Under the pieces are notes generated by a model, which searched no databases, was not told where the DNA came from, and saw only the letters and a program-made list of their open reading frames with translations. This document shows, one piece after another, positions 948 to 39,100 of a stretch of DNA of 52,582 nt (positions are counted from its first letter, which is position 1; each line of letters opens with the position of its first letter). This DNA comes from Phycisphaerae bacterium (lineage in GTDB: Bacteria > Planctomycetota > Phycisphaerae > UBA1845 > PWPN01). The translations under genes were made by a program, and so were the position numbers. Where the stretch lies: assembly GCA_012729395.1 (NCBI GenBank), contig JAAYDF010000180.1, positions 1 through 52,582 of the forward strand, written 5' to 3'.

Positions 948-1044
948 GTCCCCGTAGCGATCATCCCCTGTGGTGACCGGCGTATTTGCTGGAAATCCAG
1001 CGTCCTCCAGCGGCGGTGGCCGCTACCTGATTTCGTGAAATGCT
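948..1044 (-). repeat. MITE-like palindromic element, diverged inverted copy D
   Basis: Read on the minus strand, this segment begins AGCATTTCACG, then GGTAGCGGCC, then AATACGCCGGTCACCACAGG, and ends near GATCGCTACGGGG. The order and spacing follow copies A (492-604) and B (12595-12709), but with many substitutions. It is therefore an older copy in the opposite orientation. Confidence 0.55.
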
Positions 1045-1296
1045 CCGAGCGGTCTTGTGCAAGTGCGTAGCACTCTCGTGGGTCCGAAACAAGAACCATC
1101 GGTTGGCATGCGGGCCATCGCCGCGACAGATTGGCCTAGGACCACTTGGCCCCCCGCGAGCCATGAGCACGCGCAATACGTCGGCCCGAAAGCAAACGAC
1201 AGGCTCATCGCTGCACCCATGGGGCGCCAGGCCGCAGGAAACGGCTCGCCATAGTGCTTGGTGGTCAGCCGATGGAGCAAAGCTCGCACACCATCG

Positions 1297-4200
1297 CTAC
1301 GGACAGGGCCCCGTCGCGTCGAGCCGGTTTCTCACGGCCACCAAGTCGAAGATGTTAACCTGCCCATCGGTGTTGACGTCCGCTCGGACGCTGTCGGCGG
1401 TCACCGGCTGGTTCAATTGGTCGCGGATCTGCTCCAAATCAAGAAGGTCCACTGTGCCATCGCCGTTCACGTCGCCGGCCAGGACGCAAAATGAAAACCG
1501 CGGACCCAGCATGGGGTTGCCGTCGGCATCGACCAAACCCGCCAACGCCACCGCCAGGCAGGTCGTCTCGGCCACGCCGCTCAGTTGAACGGTCATCTGG
1601 TCGCCCGCCAGACCAACGTTCTGGACTACCCCCACAGAGACGCTCACTTCCGACTCATCCGCCACGCCGTCCGCCGCGAACACCGGCTCGCTGAAGGCGA
1701 CGACCAGCTCGCTCACCCCGCCGAGGCGACCCTCACCGAAGGCAAACAAGCCGCCATCAAGAGGCAGATCAAGGTCGAACTCCCCGGCCGCACCGTGTGA
1801 CTTTCGCGAAACCGCGCCAACCACGGTAGGAAGACCAGCATATTCGTATGCCCCCATGTCCGCGATAGCCGTGCCGTCGCCGTCGCCATCCACGATCCGC
1901 GGCGCTCCGTCGAAATCCCTGGTGCCGATGGGCAGGCCCACGGTATTGGTGCCCGCATCAATGCAGGGCGACCCCGGGCGCAACCGGTAGTTGCCCCAAG
2001 GACTGGCGAATTGAGGGTCGGCGTCGATGTTGCCCGTGCCCGAACAACCACCTTGGATGTTGCAGTAGGAGACGGCGACACTCGCTTCGGTGGAACGATA
2101 CAACTGTGACCCGTAGGGTGCGGTGTTGCCCCAGAAAATGCTGTTGACCACACTTGTAGAGTCCTTAGCTGCCTGGATCACGGCGAGCGCCCCACCGGAA
2201 CCCCGGTCTCCGCCGGCCACGTTACCCACAAACGTGCAGTAACGGAATCTGACCTCGGTCTTCGTTCTGTTAACCACCCCTCCCCCGAAGGCAACGCTGC
2301 CGACAGCTCGGTTGGCATGGAAAACGCAATGGGTCACCGTAGCCTGACTGTTCTCTGCATTGTACATTCCGCCGCCCTTGATCCCCGTGTTACCAACGAA
2401 GGAGCAGGCCATGACGGTCGCGTCACTATACTGTCCATTGCGCATCCCTCCGCCGCTTGCGACGATGCTCGTGGCGGAATTCCTGCTAAACAGGCAACCC
2501 ACAACTCTCGGCACCGCGTGATCGTCGTTGTCCATCCCGCCGCCGTCTCCAGCCGAGTTGCCGGTGAAGCTGCATCGCACGACCGTGGGGCTGTTGTTGC
2601 AGTTATACATACCGGCACCCCGCAAGACGGCTGTGTTATCCCGGAAGAGGCAACCCGTCACACTCGGGCTACACCCGTTGTTGTACATCCCCGCGCCCAA
2701 TTGGGCAGCAGAGGCGGCACCGCTGGCGTTCCCGCCGGTGATGGTGAAACCATCGAGGGTGGCATCGTCGGCCCCGACAACCACATGGAAACTGTTATCC
2801 TGCCGCGTGGGCTCGTCGTGGGCCACTTGGCCGTTGTCGTTGCCCAGGAGGTCGCCGCTGAGGATGGTCTCGTTGGCGTTCAGGTCGCGGTCCGTTGGGG
2901 TAAAAACGGTCGGGTCCTCCGTGCCCGCGAAACCGCCGAACAACGTCACGCCCGGCTTCATGGCGAATGATTTTGCCCGGTCACCGTCGCCCGTCGGAGT
3001 GTAGATCCCCGCCGCCACCCAGACCCAGTCACCTGTCTGCGCCGCGTTGATGCCCGCCTGCACGGTCCGCTTGGCTGTCGCCCAGCTCGAGCCGTCGTTG
3101 GCATCGTCGCCGTCAAGCGTCACAAAGACAATGACCGGCCGCCAGTACACAGCCGTCTTAACGCCGCTGGGCTCGAGGCCATCCTTCCACGCCTTGGCCT
3201 TCAGCGTCGTCGGCGATTCAGTGCTGACCGACACACTCTCTCCCGATTCTACCGTCGGGTCATCCTCGGTCGGGTCGCGGCCATCGGTTGTGTAGTGGAT
3301 GATCGCCCCCGGTGTCGTACAGGTGATGGTCACCTGCTGCGAAGCGTTGATGGGCCCACTGTCGGGATCGAACGCCGGTGTCGAAAGCACCGGGGCGGCC
3401 CCCTCATAGGCTCCCATGTCCACGATGGGCGGCGTACCGTTGCCGATATCCGGAATACCAGCCTCATCAAGAAATCGGGGCCCGCCAGCCAGATCAACGG
3501 TCACGCCAGCGGGTACCTCGGCATTCTTGCCCGCGTCGATACACGGACTGTCGGCCAGTAAGCGTAGATCGCCGTAATCATCATCAGTGGTACCCCAGAT
3601 GCCGTCCGAGCCCGGGCTTGGGTGACGCACGAACACCGGATCACAATTGATGTTACCTTCAGTGGCTTCCCATCCGCGAACATCGCAGTGGAATGGCGTA
3701 ACCTGGTAGAGATCCGGAGCGATGGCAGCCTCATTACCCCACACAATGCAATTGGCGATGGTCATGGGTGACGACGAGGACGAGCTGTAGTTATAATACA
3801 GCCCTCCCCCGGTGGCGGCGGAGTTTCCACTGAATACACAGTTGCGGATCAGTGAGGGCGCGGTCCCCGCATACACTCCACCCCCGCTGCTGCCGGCTGT
3901 GTTCCCGCTGAAAATGCAGTTGGTGATTGGGGTATCTCGACCTCCGCCGGCTACCCCGCCACCCGAGTACGCAGCACGGTTGCCAGTGAAAACACAACGA
4001 TCCAGCATGCTGAATGAACCGAGAAGGCAAAACCCTCCTCCAAAGTCTGCCGAGTTGTTGTGGACAACGTTACCACTGATCTGGGTCGAAAGGAAGGAGC
4101 TAGAGACATAGGCCGCGCCTCCGCTGTGGCGAGCACTGTTCCCTGCAATCGTATTGCGGCAGATCTCCATACTGGCGGAGTAGCAGTAGATGCCCCCTCC

Positions 4201-12048: not shown

Positions 12049-12412
12049 CGGCCGTGTTCGGAAGCTGCTGTCCGCGTGGCCGCGCCGTCCAACCGGTTGA
12101 GAGCCTCTGTGTCGGGACGGAATGACTATGCTGATTCGTTCAACTGCGCCCGTTGCTGTGCCAATCAAGGAGTTCCCAATTATAGTGGGTCTGCAACAGA
12201 ACCGCGCACGAGCCGAACCGCGATGCGTCATGGAATCGGCGAACGACCGGCGCCGTCTGCCAAACCACCCGTAGATAGCGGATGCGACAACGCGGCAGGT
12301 TCGCGTGCTGTGGCTGTAGCATGCGTCGGTCGCCAGGAGGCGGGATGGCGTGGAGAAAGAGGCACAGAGGCAGAAGGGGAACAGGCACACAGGCACGTGC
12401 AAGCCATGTGCA
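12049..12412. other. Intergenic stretch, no gene supported
   Basis: A purine-rich, low-complexity patch (about 12350-12400, built from AGGCACAG/AGGCACAC-like units) precedes the two palindromic elements at 12413-12709. I see no gene, tRNA or clear promoter in this stretch. Confidence 0.4.
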
Positions 12413-12518
12413 GGTCGCCACGGCTCGGCTGTCTTCGACGCTGAGCTCGCTTCGTCTGAGCTCAGCGTCGAAGACAGACGAAGCGAGCTCGCCGAAGTCG
12501 GGGGGCGACCGCTACGAT
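12413..12518 (+). repeat. MITE-core variant with nested 20-bp perfect inverted repeat (copy E)
   Basis: The segment opens with GGTCGCCACGG and closes with GGGGGGCGACCGCTACGAT, the two halves of the core hairpin of copies A and B. About 75 bp sit between them. That insert contains a perfect 20-bp inverted repeat (12429-12448 with 12458-12477, 9-nt loop). It also contains an overlapping alternative 15-bp stem (12443-12457 with 12476-12490). A related insert is present in copy C at 38989-39087. Confidence 0.65.
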
Positions 12519-12594
12519 CGGCGGGTGGATAGGAGCGGCGGCGGTTCCCGCAGGTCGCTGGGCCTGGCGGCTACTCCCGGCTCGCAAGATACCC

Positions 12595-12709
12595 TAGAGC
12601 ATTTCACGCAATGGCGTAGCGGCCGCCGCCCCTGGTGGCCCGCGAACTCGCAAGGAATACGCCGGTCGCCACGGGGGGCGACCGCTACGATGGGGCGTGA
12701 ATCGCTCTA
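12595..12709 (+). repeat. MITE-like palindromic element, copy B (complete, 115 bp)
   Basis: This is the best-preserved copy. The left terminus TAGAGCATTTCACGC and the inverted right terminus TAGAGCGATTCACGC extend to about 33-bp terminal inverted repeats, 25 of 33 identical by eye. The right end (TAG on the minus strand, 12707-12709) is the stop codon of the sialidase-like gene. The element therefore ends exactly on that codon. Confidence 0.78.
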
Positions 12710-15676
12710 ATCGTCGCAGGTCACGCCAGCTGATACCTCCGCGCCGCTCACGCAATCCATGAAGTAATCGAAATCGCCGCCGTCAACCTCGCCGTTGCTG
12801 TCGATATCAAGGCAAGCACAATCCTCGACCTCCGTAACGATGTCGCCGTAGCACGCCTGAAATCTGCCGAAATCGCTTTGGTCGACGTCGCCATCGCCAT
12901 CCGTATCCGCGAACGGGTTGCCGCATGGCCCCAACGGTCTCTGACCGGTTTCAAATTGGACGAAAGCGTAGCGTGCGTCCGAGGCAAGCCCACCCGAGTT
13001 GTTGTCTCCCCAAACCACTCTCTTGAAAGAGCGACTCAGCGACTCAGCTCGCGTCTGCGTGCCGACCACGTCGCCATCAAGGTAAAATGACACCGCTCCG
13101 TTGCCATCATCCGCCGCGGGGTCATACACCATCTGAATGGTGTGATACTCGGCGGAAGGATCGAAGGCGGCCAATTGCTGGTGCACCTGGGGCGACGCGT
13201 TTGTCGTCCACAAGCCGGGCGATAAAGTACCGCCCGACGTCACCAGACTCAGCAGCCACAAGTCCCGGTCGTCGTTGACTTCGAGGCAGCTCTGGAACAT
13301 GTCGAGGGCGGAGATGGCACGTACCCGGGCAGTCAACGTCCAGCCGGCAGGATCAGACCATTGGGACGGACTCAACGTGTGCTGGTAGTTGGCTCGTCGG
13401 CCGGCGTTGACGCTGACCTGCCAATGAGGCCTGCCCGAGACACCCGTTACGAGGGTGCGTTCTCCTGTTGAGGTGTTGGTATCCAAGGTCCAAGCTCCGG
13501 CTTCGGTGAGCGGGTCCGCACCGCCGCGATGGGTTGCCGTTCTCGTCTCTTGGGTCTGAACCCGCAGTGTGAAATCGCCGCTTGCCTGCTGGGCTCCGCT
13601 CACGCGAACAAGATACGATTGTGCTTGGGTCACGGGCACGATGAGACAGGAATCCGGACCGCCGCACAACGTGCCGTCGCAGTCATCGTTGCAGATCAGT
13701 TCCTGCCCACCACACCCGTCGAGCACGGAAACGACGGTGTCGAAGCGGCTCCCGCAAGTATCGATCATGAGATCCCCGGTCACCGGCGCGACGTATCGAT
13801 ACCAGACGTCGGGGCTGTTGTTGGAATCCCCGCAGGAAGCGGTCCCATCGCCGGTTGCACCCAGTGTTGACCCTCTGATCGTGCCATCCGTGATCGGCAG
13901 AGCCGAAGCGCAGTCATCGTTGATGCCGATCCGGGCAATGTCCAGGTTGTCGAAGTAGACTGACGAGGGAACACCCGCCGCGTTGCCGGTCCAGCGGTTC
14001 TTCAGCAACGCGACGAAACTCGATGGCGTGCTGGCGGTCCCCGCCACCGTTGCGGAAGCGACCTGGACGCCATTGATGAGCACCTGAAGGGACTCACCGA
14101 GAAGCACGGCGGTCACACGGAATGGTTCCGCCAGCTCGAGCACGCCGTCGCCATCCGTATCAAACGCGAGGCCGTTCAGCGCGGTGGGCAGGCTGCCGGG
14201 GCCGAAGAAGGAATTCAACTGCGAGAACTCCTGCTGGCCCGACACGAAAGGGTTGTCGGCGAAGAGGGTGCTGATCGCACCGCCGCCGGCAGGCATCTGT
14301 CCGATGTAGATGCCGCCGCTGGGATGGATCTGGACGCTGATTTGACCGCCGGAGCTGCTGTCACCGATATTGCCGTCGGACCTGGGCCGACGCAGCAAGA
14401 AACCTCCAGTGTTGTTGCCGAGCGCCTGGGCCGGGTTGTTGATCGCGAAACGCAGATCCGCGGAGATCGCCAGGTCAGGCAGGTCGACATCCAGAGCAGC
14501 GACACCCGCTCCACTGCCGGCCGGGGTGGTGCTGACGCCGAAGAGCAGCATTTGCCCACCGGTGATGCTCGCGACGTTGGCGGCTGCCCCGACCGTCTGG
14601 CGCTCCACCCAAGCCACCCGCGGCTGTTCCGTCGATGCGAGGGCGTCGTTGTCGGCACGTGTGAAGGTGTCAGTCACGCTGACAGGCGTCGAATCTGGAA
14701 AGGCCACCTTCGCCAGGTAGATCGACGGCTTGCCTTCGTGTGACGAGTAGTAACTGATCCAGAGAAGGTCGTTGTACCAGACCAGTCCCGCATAGCTGGT
14801 GTCGCCGCCGGACGGCAGAGTGAGGCACTCGGTGAGGGCGCCCGTGACCGGATCAACCCAAGTCACACTGGTCCGCACGATCCCGTCATAGAGACGGGTG
14901 ACCGCAACGAATCGCCCGTCCGGCAAGCGAATCATATCCGGACCGCCCATGTTGGTACCCATTGGCGTCCACGTCCAGTCTGTGTACGGCGGCTGGGCGG
15001 TTCCCCATAGCGAGTCGCGCAGGAGCACCTTGGCCGTACCGTCCTCAAGGAAGATGATCCGTGAGGTCTCATTGATGATCCCCGATGCCTGCATGTCGGA
15101 TACGAGGGTTGAGAAGTTCGTACCATCGGTGCTCGTGTAAAGGCGAACCAGAACCGTGGGGTTCCATTGGTACCCAATGCCGTACGCTGTGCTGTTGTGC
15201 CACGTGATCCGCCAAAGCCAGACGTTCGGCTCGCCGATCTCAGTGCGCTGTGTCCAGTTCGTGCCATTCTGCGAGAACCAGACGAAGTTGCGGTGAGTCA
15301 CACCGTCGACCGCCACTGGGGTGACTGCGGCGGCATACAGCATGAGTCGGTTATCGGGCGTGATCACCATATGAGGATCACGCAGGTCCTCCGCGGCCGA
15401 GGTGAGAACCGCAACGGATGCCCAAGTACTCCCGTTGGTGGATCGCAGGATCCGGATCGTTCCAGGCAGGGCCACACCGTGCGTTGTGCTCTCGCGGAAA
15501 CAGCAGTACCACGCTCCTTTGTACGCGACGAGATCGGTAAACGAGTTGTACGGGGCAGAATCCCATATTTTCTGGACGCTGACCAACTGAGCCAACCCCT
15601 GCCCGAAGACAGGAACAGCCGCCATGGACAAGGATACGAACACGACACACACGATTCTGAGCCAATCCAGGAACAA
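12707..15676 (-). CDS. Secreted sialidase-like propeller protein with LamG-like and paired EF-hand modules
   Basis: 989 aa. The start is TTG 15676, supported by GAGGTG 6 nt upstream and by the signal peptide that follows (cleavage near VPVFG). Residues about 30-330 form a beta-propeller with Asp-box-like STNGSTW and TSTDGTNF repeats, as in exo-alpha-sialidases. Residues about 340-590 are a concanavalin/LamG-like module. Residues about 595-715 are a Cys-rich pre-peptidase-like domain (NDDCASALPI to DFTLRVQT). A second LamG-like region follows. The C terminus is an EF-hand pair, DTDGDGDVDQSDF and DIDSNGEVDGGDF, ending in VTCDD. It is probably a surface glycan-binding or sialidase-type enzyme; catalytic residues were not assigned. 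Its stop codon lies within MITE copy B. A related C-terminal tail occurs in the PHP-domain protein at 16496-19237. Confidence 0.82.
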   Translation of the reverse strand: MFLDWLRIVCVVFVSLSMAAVPVFGQGLAQLVSVQKIWDSAPYNSFTDLVAYKGAWYCCFRESTTHGVALPGTIRILRSTNGSTWASVAVLTSAAEDLRDPHMVITPDNRLMLYAAAVTPVAVDGVTHRNFVWFSQNGTNWTQRTEIGEPNVWLWRITWHNSTAYGIGYQWNPTVLVRLYTSTDGTNFSTLVSDMQASGIINETSRIIFLEDGTAKVLLRDSLWGTAQPPYTDWTWTPMGTNMGGPDMIRLPDGRFVAVTRLYDGIVRTSVTWVDPVTGALTECLTLPSGGDTSYAGLVWYNDLLWISYYSSHEGKPSIYLAKVAFPDSTPVSVTDTFTRADNDALASTEQPRVAWVERQTVGAAANVASITGGQMLLFGVSTTPAGSGAGVAALDVDLPDLAISADLRFAINNPAQALGNNTGGFLLRRPRSDGNIGDSSSGGQISVQIHPSGGIYIGQMPAGGGAISTLFADNPFVSGQQEFSQLNSFFGPGSLPTALNGLAFDTDGDGVLELAEPFRVTAVLLGESLQVLINGVQVASATVAGTASTPSSFVALLKNRWTGNAAGVPSSVYFDNLDIARIGINDDCASALPITDGTIRGSTLGATGDGTASCGDSNNSPDVWYRYVAPVTGDLMIDTCGSRFDTVVSVLDGCGGQELICNDDCDGTLCGGPDSCLIVPVTQAQSYLVRVSGAQQASGDFTLRVQTQETRTATHRGGADPLTEAGAWTLDTNTSTGERTLVTGVSGRPHWQVSVNAGRRANYQHTLSPSQWSDPAGWTLTARVRAISALDMFQSCLEVNDDRDLWLLSLVTSGGTLSPGLWTTNASPQVHQQLAAFDPSAEYHTIQMVYDPAADDGNGAVSFYLDGDVVGTQTRAESLSRSFKRVVWGDNNSGGLASDARYAFVQFETGQRPLGPCGNPFADTDGDGDVDQSDFGRFQACYGDIVTEVEDCACLDIDSNGEVDGGDFDYFMDCVSGAEVSAGVTCDD

Positions 15677-36912: not shown

Positions 36913-36988
36913 ATCGGCGGTCCGTTTCTTTGGGCTCAGCATCCGAAGGGACGGTCAACCACCGGTGGACACCGATCAAGGACAGCGT

Positions 36989-37786
36989 ATGAGCGAGTTG
37001 GTGCCTAACAGGTTGCTGTTTCGTTTTGAGGTGCCGATCCGATATCGCCGGCCGCCGGTGATCGATGGCGACTTGAGCGATTGGCCGGACGAGTACCTTC
37101 TGCCGGACTTCGGCCGGCTGGACGGGAGGGAGTCGTTCGCCCGCGTCTGGCTGGCGTGGCATGAGAGCGGGCTGTTCCTCGCCTGCCGAATCGAGGGGCG
37201 GCGCAGCCCGTTCCAGTGCGATCCGACGGCGTTCTGGAAGGGTGACAACCTGCGGCTCATGACCGACATGCGGGACACGCGCGACCTCAAGCGGGCCTCG
37301 CGCTATTGCCAGCAGTTTTACTTCCTGCCGACCGGCGGCGGGCGCGACCGGAAACAGCCGGTCGCCGGGGCCGCCCGCATCAACCGGGCGACAGAACACG
37401 CCCCACCCGTTCGCGACGGCCTCATCGCCATCGCCGCGACCCGCCAAGCCGCTTCCGCCCTCGATGCCGGCGTTGAACGCGCCGGCCGCCGCGGGGGGCG
37501 GCCGCTACCTGCCGACGCCGAGCGACTGGCATCAGCCGACGAGCGACGTCCATCACCGATCAGCTCGAAGGAACGGTTGCCGGCCGACGTCTACACCCTC
37601 GAAGCCCATATTCCACAAACGGCGTTGTCCGGGTTCGACCCGATCGAGCATTCCCGCATCGGCCTCTACGTCATGGTCGAGGACCGCGATCTAGGCCAGC
37701 AGTACCTGACGGTCGGCGATGAACTCAATTGGCACGTCGATCCGAGCACCTGGGCTACCGGCGTTCTGACACCGATGCCGCGTTGA
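36989..37786 (+). CDS. DOMON/CBM9-like carbohydrate-binding-type protein, with repeat-derived insert
   Basis: 265 aa, not further recognised. The ATG at 36989 (AAGGA 6 nt upstream) is preferred over GTG 36965. There is no signal peptide. The fold pattern IDGDLSDWPDEYLLPDF, VWLAWHESGLFLACRIEG and FWKGDNLRLMTDMRDTRD is that of CBM9/DOMON-like beta-sandwich domains. The C-terminal strand is ADVYTLEAHIPQTALSGFDP to GLYVMVEDRDLG. Between them lies an Arg/Ala-rich stretch (about 155-200) whose DNA includes a MITE core hairpin at 37480-37510. That segment is probably a translated repeat. It follows the uvrA fragment by 76 bp on the same strand and may share its transcript. Confidence 0.65.
   Translation: MSELVPNRLLFRFEVPIRYRRPPVIDGDLSDWPDEYLLPDFGRLDGRESFARVWLAWHESGLFLACRIEGRRSPFQCDPTAFWKGDNLRLMTDMRDTRDLKRASRYCQQFYFLPTGGGRDRKQPVAGAARINRATEHAPPVRDGLIAIAATRQAASALDAGVERAGRRGGRPLPADAERLASADERRPSPISSKERLPADVYTLEAHIPQTALSGFDPIEHSRIGLYVMVEDRDLGQQYLTVGDELNWHVDPSTWATGVLTPMPR
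37480..37510 (+). repeat. MITE core hairpin inside a coding sequence (copy F)
   Basis: The 31 bp align with the core of copies A (556-586) and B (12660-12690). The differences inside the stem are compensatory: GGTCGCC/GGCGACC in A and B becomes GGCCGCC/GGCGGCC here. The hairpin is thus conserved while the sequence changed. It encodes about AGRRGGRPLP in the DOMON-like protein. Confidence 0.6.
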
Positions 37787-37947
37787 CTTGATCCGAGCCG
37801 GGTCGTAGAGTGCCGTCAGGCGTCTCCGTCGTCACAAGGCGGCGGTGCGTGTATAGCGTCCGGGGAGTGGACGAACACCGTCTGAGCCATGCAGCGCGTG
37901 CCGGACGCGCGACCATCGAGGGGCAAGATGCAAGGAGTGCACAAGCC

Positions 37948-38991
37948 GTGGTAGAAACACCCCCGCCTCAACGACCAATTCGGCAACTGTCGCTGGCCCT
38001 GACGATTGCGGGGACGGCGGTTGGGCTCATTCTTCTGGCTGCAGGCGCTTATCTGCTGTTCGAGGCGGGGACACGGACAACGGGAGCGTTGCTTCTGGTG
38101 GCTGGTTTGCTGCTGGCGTGCCAATCGCTTTTCGTCTTCGTGCTCATGGAGACGGCCGGGCAGGCCGAAGCCAATATCCACCGCCTGTACCGCAACTCGC
38201 TGCACCTGCTGGACTCCGTCGATCGGATCGAGCCGCTGATCAAGATGATCTCGCATAACAGCCAGATCTCCGACTCGGCCAAGTCACTGGCCCACCGCGA
38301 CCTTGAACGAGATGCCCTGCGGCAGGCCATCCGCGAGGAAATGTACAGCGGCGAGATGGAGGCCGTGCAGTACCTGATCGACGAGATGGAGCGGCGGTTC
38401 GGCTACCGGCAAGAGGCCCAGAAGCTGCGCGAGGAGATCGCCCAAGTCCGCGAGATGACCATCGAGGAGAAAATCAACGAGGCGATCGTACACATCGAAC
38501 GGCTCATGGCCGAGTATCAGTGGGAACGGGCCGCCCGGGAATCCGAACGGCTGATGAAGCTCTTCCCGCGGCACGAACGAGTCACCAACCTGCCCACCAC
38601 GCTGAACGAACGACGTGAGGCCCGCAAGCAGGAACTGCTCACCCAGTGGAAGCAGGCCGTCGAGCGGGAGGAGGTCGACCACGGCATTGCCATCCTGACC
38701 GAGCTGGATGAGTACCTGACCAAAGAAGAGGCCCAGGCCCTTCAGGACTCCGCTCGGCACGTCTTCAAAGCCCGGTTGCTCAACCTGGGCGTACAGTTCG
38801 GCTTGGCGGTCACCGAGGCTCGGTGGCGCGACGCGTTGGAGGTCGGGCTGAGGATTCGCCAGGAGTTCCCCAATAGCCGTATGGCCCACGAGGTCTCCGG
38901 CAAGGTCGAAACCCTGCGACTCAAAGCCGGCTTCGTCGCCGACGCAGAGATCATCCGCCGCCGCGATACGCAGGAGAAGGGGGAAGGCTAG
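37948..38991 (+). CDS. Membrane protein with two TM helices and long coiled-coil domain
   Basis: 347 aa, not recognised. GTG 37948 is chosen because AAGGAG lies 10 nt upstream; the longer frame from 37810 has an unlikely Arg-rich leader. Two transmembrane helices span about residues 14-38 and 45-68. The rest (about 75-345) is a charged, helical, coiled-coil-rich region with heptad-like segments (EEMYSGEMEAVQYLIDEMER, REEIAQVREMTIEEKINEAI). It may form TPR-like helical hairpins (YQWERAARESERLMKLFP). It is probably an inner-membrane protein with a cytoplasmic helical domain, possibly structural. Its TAG stop is also the terminal TAG of a MITE copy (38989-39087). Confidence 0.75.
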   Translation: MVETPPPQRPIRQLSLALTIAGTAVGLILLAAGAYLLFEAGTRTTGALLLVAGLLLACQSLFVFVLMETAGQAEANIHRLYRNSLHLLDSVDRIEPLIKMISHNSQISDSAKSLAHRDLERDALRQAIREEMYSGEMEAVQYLIDEMERRFGYRQEAQKLREEIAQVREMTIEEKINEAIVHIERLMAEYQWERAARESERLMKLFPRHERVTNLPTTLNERREARKQELLTQWKQAVEREEVDHGIAILTELDEYLTKEEAQALQDSARHVFKARLLNLGVQFGLAVTEARWRDALEVGLRIRQEFPNSRMAHEVSGKVETLRLKAGFVADAEIIRRRDTQEKGEG

Positions 38992-39087
38992 AGCGATTCA
39001 CGCCCCATCGTAGCGGTCGCCCCCCGACTTCGGCGAGCTCGCTCCGTCTGAGCTCAGCGTCGAAGACTGCCGAGCCACAGCGACCGG
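38989..39087 (-). repeat. MITE-like element, truncated copy C
   Basis: It begins TAGAGCGATTCACGCCCCAT, the same terminus as copy B, continues CGTAGCGGTCGCCCCCC, then carries the GACTTCGGCGAGCTCGC insert also found in copy E (12413-12518), and ends near GCGACCGGCG. The left third of the full element is missing. The first three bases are the stop codon of the membrane protein gene (37948-38991). Confidence 0.72.
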
Positions 39088-39100
39088 CGGCGGTTTTCCC

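Follow-up and report, generated by a model that had tools for sequence, protein, structure and literature searches.

Short MITEs of Phycisphaerae appear to insert at YTAR sites and to rebuild TAG stop codons at gene ends

Two genes in a 52,582-nucleotide stretch of DNA from a Phycisphaerae bacterium (hereinafter, the window) terminate exactly at the ends of MITEs, and the same arrangement recurs across two genomes. The best explanation, with a probability of about 0.88, is that an IS630-type MITE that inserts at YTAR rebuilds a TAG where its target lies at a stop codon, that gene-breaking copies are filtered out, and that the rebuilt stop is conserved. At the sequence level, this reading is supported by the YTAR context, the TA at both element ends, the distribution of reading frames, the stops that are restored when the element is removed, the conservation of the gene-facing TAG, and the existence of a partner IS with the same ends. 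The genome that contains the window (G000) is a 5.74-Mb assembly of 370 contigs. The second genome, G053, belongs to another family, and G008 and G009 are relatives of G000 from the same family; the assemblies compared are fragmented and include no genome of the same genus. The MITE copies of the window and the genes that terminate at them are as follows:

Positions 12595 to 12709, no strand assigned: copy B, a complete 115-nt MITE, an imperfect palindrome identical to the family consensus
Positions 12707 to 12709, minus strand: stop codon TAG of the B gene, composed of the target TA (12709-12708) and the first base of the element, G
Positions 12707 to 15676, minus strand: the B gene, a large ORF of 989 codons that terminates at copy B
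Positions 38989 to 39089, plus strand: copy C, a partial copy of the long MITE variant, with one end and about 101 nt
Positions 38989 to 38991, plus strand: stop codon TAG of the C gene, composed of the TA target and the first G of the element
Positions 37810 to 38991, plus strand: the C gene, an ORF of 393 codons that terminates at copy C
Positions 492 to 605, no strand assigned: copy A, a 114-nt MITE, intergenic and away from gene ends, with decayed ends (TAAAGC and TGGAGC)
Positions 953 to 1047, minus strand: copy A', an old relic, about 75% identical
Positions 12399 to 12521, minus strand: copy B', an internal fragment of the long variant without the terminal TA-GAGC

In addition, 29 nt of the window (37480-37508), within the ORF 36965-37786, match the MITE core at 90%.

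The element proper of copy B occupies positions 12597-12707 (GAGC...GCTC) and is flanked by the TA target duplications at 12595-12596 and 12708-12709; joining the flanks points to TAG as the ancestral stop of the B gene. A preliminary description of the window was exact in placing the stop codons of both genes at the outer TAG of the two copies. It erred in treating copy C as a whole MITE (this copy is a piece of a longer variant that has lost its other end) and in calling the B gene sialidase-like: no sialidase family is matched, and the protein contains Pfam galactose-binding and LamG/concanavalin domains along with an Asp-rich, dockerin-like C-terminus. Nine orthologues of the C gene product (56-65% identical) stop at the same point to within a few residues, with one stopping about 10 residues later; their stop codons are TGA, TAG or TAA, and the element is absent from each of these stops.

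The MITEs are non-coding, range in length from 115 to about 194 nt (G000 contains variants of 115, 139 and up to about 194 nt), and carry terminal inverted repeats with the end sequence TAGAGC(A/G)(A/T)TTCACG, the element proper beginning with G at both ends (TA-GAGC...GCTC-TA). About 45 recognizable copies are present in G000 and 49 in G053; a search of a plasmid collection detected no match. In G008, the same ends border a transposase, and G009 contains a complete, about 1-kb IS bounded on each side by TAGAGCATTTCACG; the ends common to the IS of G008 and G009 are TAGAGCATTTCACGA. The G009 IS proteins match HTH_Tnp_IS630 and DDE_3, and NCBIfam names the second part IS630 transposase. A search of G000 started with the G008 transposase identifies a relic in contig C237, in which the transposase C-terminus runs directly into ...CGTGAAATGCTCTG (also ...CATTCAATCGTGAAATGCTCTG), and a DDE_3 search for an autonomous IS in the same genome detects only one weak piece, without MITE ends; the autonomous copy in G000 appears to be dead. 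Because the MITE ends are the same as those of the IS630 element in G009 and of the relic in G000, the repeats are best classified as MITEs derived from the IS630/Tc1-mariner group. Assignment to REP/BIME elements, which lack a target duplication and are mobilized by the RAYT tyrosine transposase, was rejected given the TA at both ends and the IS630-type ends.

The IS630 transposase at L317:583-1523 in G009 is encoded in two overlapping frames, which could reflect a mutational frameshift or else a programmed one. In two long MITE copies (L081:2556-2746 and L083:3042-3235), the same internal position is occupied by a nested palindrome (TACCTTCTTGACAATTGTCA...TGACAATTGTCAAGATC) whose length differs between the two. 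Genomes G010 and G058 contain many matches (e.g., L104 and L105) to the inner stem only (GGTCGCCACGGGGGGCGACCGCTACG-like), without MITE ends, and these repeats might represent either a related or a convergent palindromic family. At the contig ends L075 and L101, MITE copies are broken by another repeat that starts with GATAGTATCGAAACCTGTGTAAATTG / GTAGTGTCAAGTCCTGTGTAAATTG and seems to be the end of a different IS.

Both ends of intact copies carry TA, and at L065:5680-5907 two adjacent MITEs have a single TA in common (GCTC-TA-GAGC), consistent with the insertion of one of them at the TA next to a pre-existing copy; insertion thus probably duplicates the 2-bp TA. Among intergenic insertions, CTAG is about 11-fold and CTAA/TTAG about 5-fold over-represented relative to the intergenic TA background, and C or T precedes 43 of the 43 IS ends in G008 (a count that leaves out seven G053 ends in the same list). 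This context preference and the invariant pyrimidine point to YTAR as the insertion target, with CTAG preferred most, in agreement with the earlier proposal that insertion is directed to TAG or CTAG-like sites. Three copies (L059, L069 and L072, around positions 3084, 2457 and 3084, respectively) lie in near-identical flanks (gtgcatcttctgt / gaggc(c/t)tgcc); either the element and its surroundings might have been duplicated together or the site might have been targeted repeatedly.

The relationship between the elements and reading frames was assessed by scoring all three frames at each element end for a coding-like ORF (at least 60 codons, codon-usage score of at least 15) that is open to the border. 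An element end is the in-frame stop of such an ORF in 12 of 66 cases in G000 and in 11 of 76 cases in G053, so that the "two independent coincidences" of the preliminary description proved to be an underestimate of a systematic pattern, with 23 cases across two genomes. Gene ends hold about a quarter of the surviving MITE copies, and the gene is mostly unchanged. The ORFs that open into an element border in frames 0, 1 and 2 number 12, 0 and 0 in each of the two genomes (24:0:0 in total), and the terminal TAG of the element is the stop in 23 of these 24 genes, one having lost the TAG. There is no orientation preference, i.e., both types of element ends face genes; given the G at both ends, a TAA or TAG stop hit by the element reads TAG afterwards, irrespective of the orientation of the element. 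Across 400 kb of G000, all 171 YTAR sites located inside genes are in frames other than frame 0, because an in-frame TAR is, by definition, a stop codon; in the same 400 kb, YTAR coincides with 17 stop codons. G008 contains IS630 copies that differ little from one another and hence presumably inserted recently; here, the genes interrupted by the IS number 1, 1 and 3 in frames 0, 1 and 2, respectively, two of these five being short ORFs. Comparison of these counts with the 24:0:0 distribution suggests that insertion itself ignores the frame and that it is the surviving copies that respect it. In G053, one subfamily of the MITE has TATAGC ends, which are unable to rebuild a stop, and, as predicted, 0 of 14 TAT ends terminate a gene, although this sample is too small to carry weight by itself.

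Empty sites were reconstructed by joining the flanks of two-ended copies, an approach applicable to 13 of the 23 stop cases, the other 10 having one recognizable end. Removal of the element restores an immediate TAA or TAG in 10 of the 13 two-ended cases, copy B included; the third-position purine in these restored stops follows from the YTAR target and hence is not an independent test. The remaining 3 cases restore a Tyr codon (TAT), with the next stop located 4, 9 or 42 codons further on, as would be expected if the elements had inserted at in-frame TA within genes and shortened them by premature stops. As a general explanation, such truncation is quite improbable: it is at odds with the immediate stops at most of the reconstructed sites, with the fact that genes never run into elements in frames 1 and 2, and with the end of the C gene, which is about the same as in the nine orthologues. 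The suggestion that elements that supply a stop are retained survives with a modification, in that the rebuilt stops are conserved and, in most of the reconstructed cases, an existing TAA or TAG was re-made, new stops having arisen at the Tyr codons.

A stop triplet is formed by the three outermost bases of the element in 23 of 24 gene-terminating ends vs 75 of the 118 remaining ends (Fisher p = 7e-4). For G000 alone, the respective numbers are 12/12 and 31/54 (p = 0.003); for G053 alone, p = 0.095, and the contrast is partly due to the subfamily that ends with TAT. Because ORF detection did not require a stop, this comparison is not circular, and the preferential preservation of the triplet suggests that the rebuilt TAG is a functional stop maintained by selection. 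The overall conservation of stop-located copies does not differ from that of the other copies (0.943 vs 0.951, p = 1).

Among the insertions outside coding sequences in G000, 7 of 20 are at stops, compared with the expectation of 6.9% for any TA and 10.1% when sites are weighted by target context; this is an about threefold excess over the weighted value (p = 0.0025), where the gene finder and the context weights are home-made and rest on a few dozen insertions. In G053, 3 of 25 insertions are at stops vs the target-weighted expectation of 11.2%, which is not significant; the genome-wide enrichment of element ends at stop codons implied by the preliminary description thus reaches significance in the former genome but not in the latter. 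A share of about 10% at stops is thus expected from the target sequence alone, and the G053 data fit this value, as would be the case if repeats that start with TAG overlapped at random with genes that end with TAG. Nevertheless, random overlap is an exceedingly improbable account of 23 in-frame cases in two genomes, with the 24:0:0 frame distribution, the conserved gene-facing triplet and the excess in G000. The target sequence and the loss of copies that break genes together account for most of the pattern, and the extra share at stops in G000 may reflect tolerance to insertions near the 3' ends of genes. With respect to gene orientation in G000, divergent intergenic sites received 0 of 11 insertions vs 41 of 143 background sites, and convergent sites look over-represented (6 of 11 insertions vs 31 of 143 background sites).

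This apparent convergent excess, the share of stops in G000 above the target-weighted null, and the high stability of the hairpin (-73.7 kcal/mol, z -7.5) are compatible with the possibility that a hairpin located at a stop terminates transcription or protects the mRNA 3' end, in which case the pattern would stem from the retention of beneficial copies and not from the choice of target. Any palindromic MITE would, however, be expected to form a stable hairpin, and several observations make such a function unlikely. A search for an intrinsic terminator (a G+C-rich stem followed by a T-run) in the region around copy B (12300-12900) detected none; genes are faced by either end of the element; compensatory changes are limited to 1 of 40 pairs; location at a stop is not accompanied by better conservation of the copy, as indicated above; and copy C folds no better than shuffled sequence. 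The terminator or mRNA-protection role envisaged in the preliminary description has accordingly found no support so far.

The preferred reading, insertion at YTAR with the rebuilding of stops, implies the following sequence of events. The MITE would be mobilized in trans by a transposase like those of G008 and G009 and inserted at the TA of YTAR, preferably CTAG, with duplication of the TA. As TA comprises the first two bases of TAA and TAG, a gene hit at such a stop would keep a TAG at the same residue in either orientation of the element, the stop codon being the only in-frame position at which the preferred target can occur inside a gene. Copies elsewhere in genes would be mostly lost, presumably by selection, so that the survivors would be intergenic copies, mainly downstream of genes, and those at stop codons. 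The outer TAG would then serve as the working stop of the gene and be maintained by purifying selection, whereas the far end would decay.

The preference for CTAG is as reported for IS630, which, according to Tenzen and Ohtsubo in 1991, reportedly prefers TA in 5'-CTAG-3'. The TA duplication is also shared with this group: ISY100 inserts almost exclusively at TA, which is duplicated (PMC2170065); the Phycisphaerae copies differ in that they are devoid of a transposase. In the open papers searched, in-frame stop-codon statistics were not found for the IS630/Tc1/mariner family. RUP of Streptococcus pneumoniae, a MITE of about 107 nt that is thought to be mobilized by IS630-Spn1 at TA (PMC2229807, PMC3049150), is described as over-represented between convergent genes (PMC3049150), in line with the lack of divergent insertions in G000; RUP resides in a different host, the likeness is one of description, and this MITE is not known to regenerate stop codons. 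MITEPsy1 of Pseudomonas syringae, a 100-nt MITE, is found at CTAG or YTAA sites (PMC3189936), but has a 4-nt duplication and probably derives from ISPsy2 (IS5 family). In Coxiella burnetii, the 3' end of enhC is modified by a copy of QMITE2 (PMC5896051), but this copy lengthens the protein by 33 residues, in contrast to the stop rebuilt at the same residue by the Phycisphaerae MITE. A search limited to open papers found no direct description of stop-codon regeneration by MITEs.

It can be further speculated that the outer G at both ends is itself adaptive, that, in combination with YTAR, it makes stops a safe harbor in compact, G+C-rich genomes, and that host genes subsequently become dependent on the element for their termination; this extension is tentative and rather doubtful. 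The findings suggest that the target sequence, the first base of the element and the genetic code jointly let a transposon strike the one silent spot of a gene. Under this mechanism, TA-targeting MITEs that start with G or A would be predicted to accumulate at TAA and TAG stops, and those that start with C or T would not. Stop rebuilding by MITEs would also account for some annotated gene ends that overlap a repeat.
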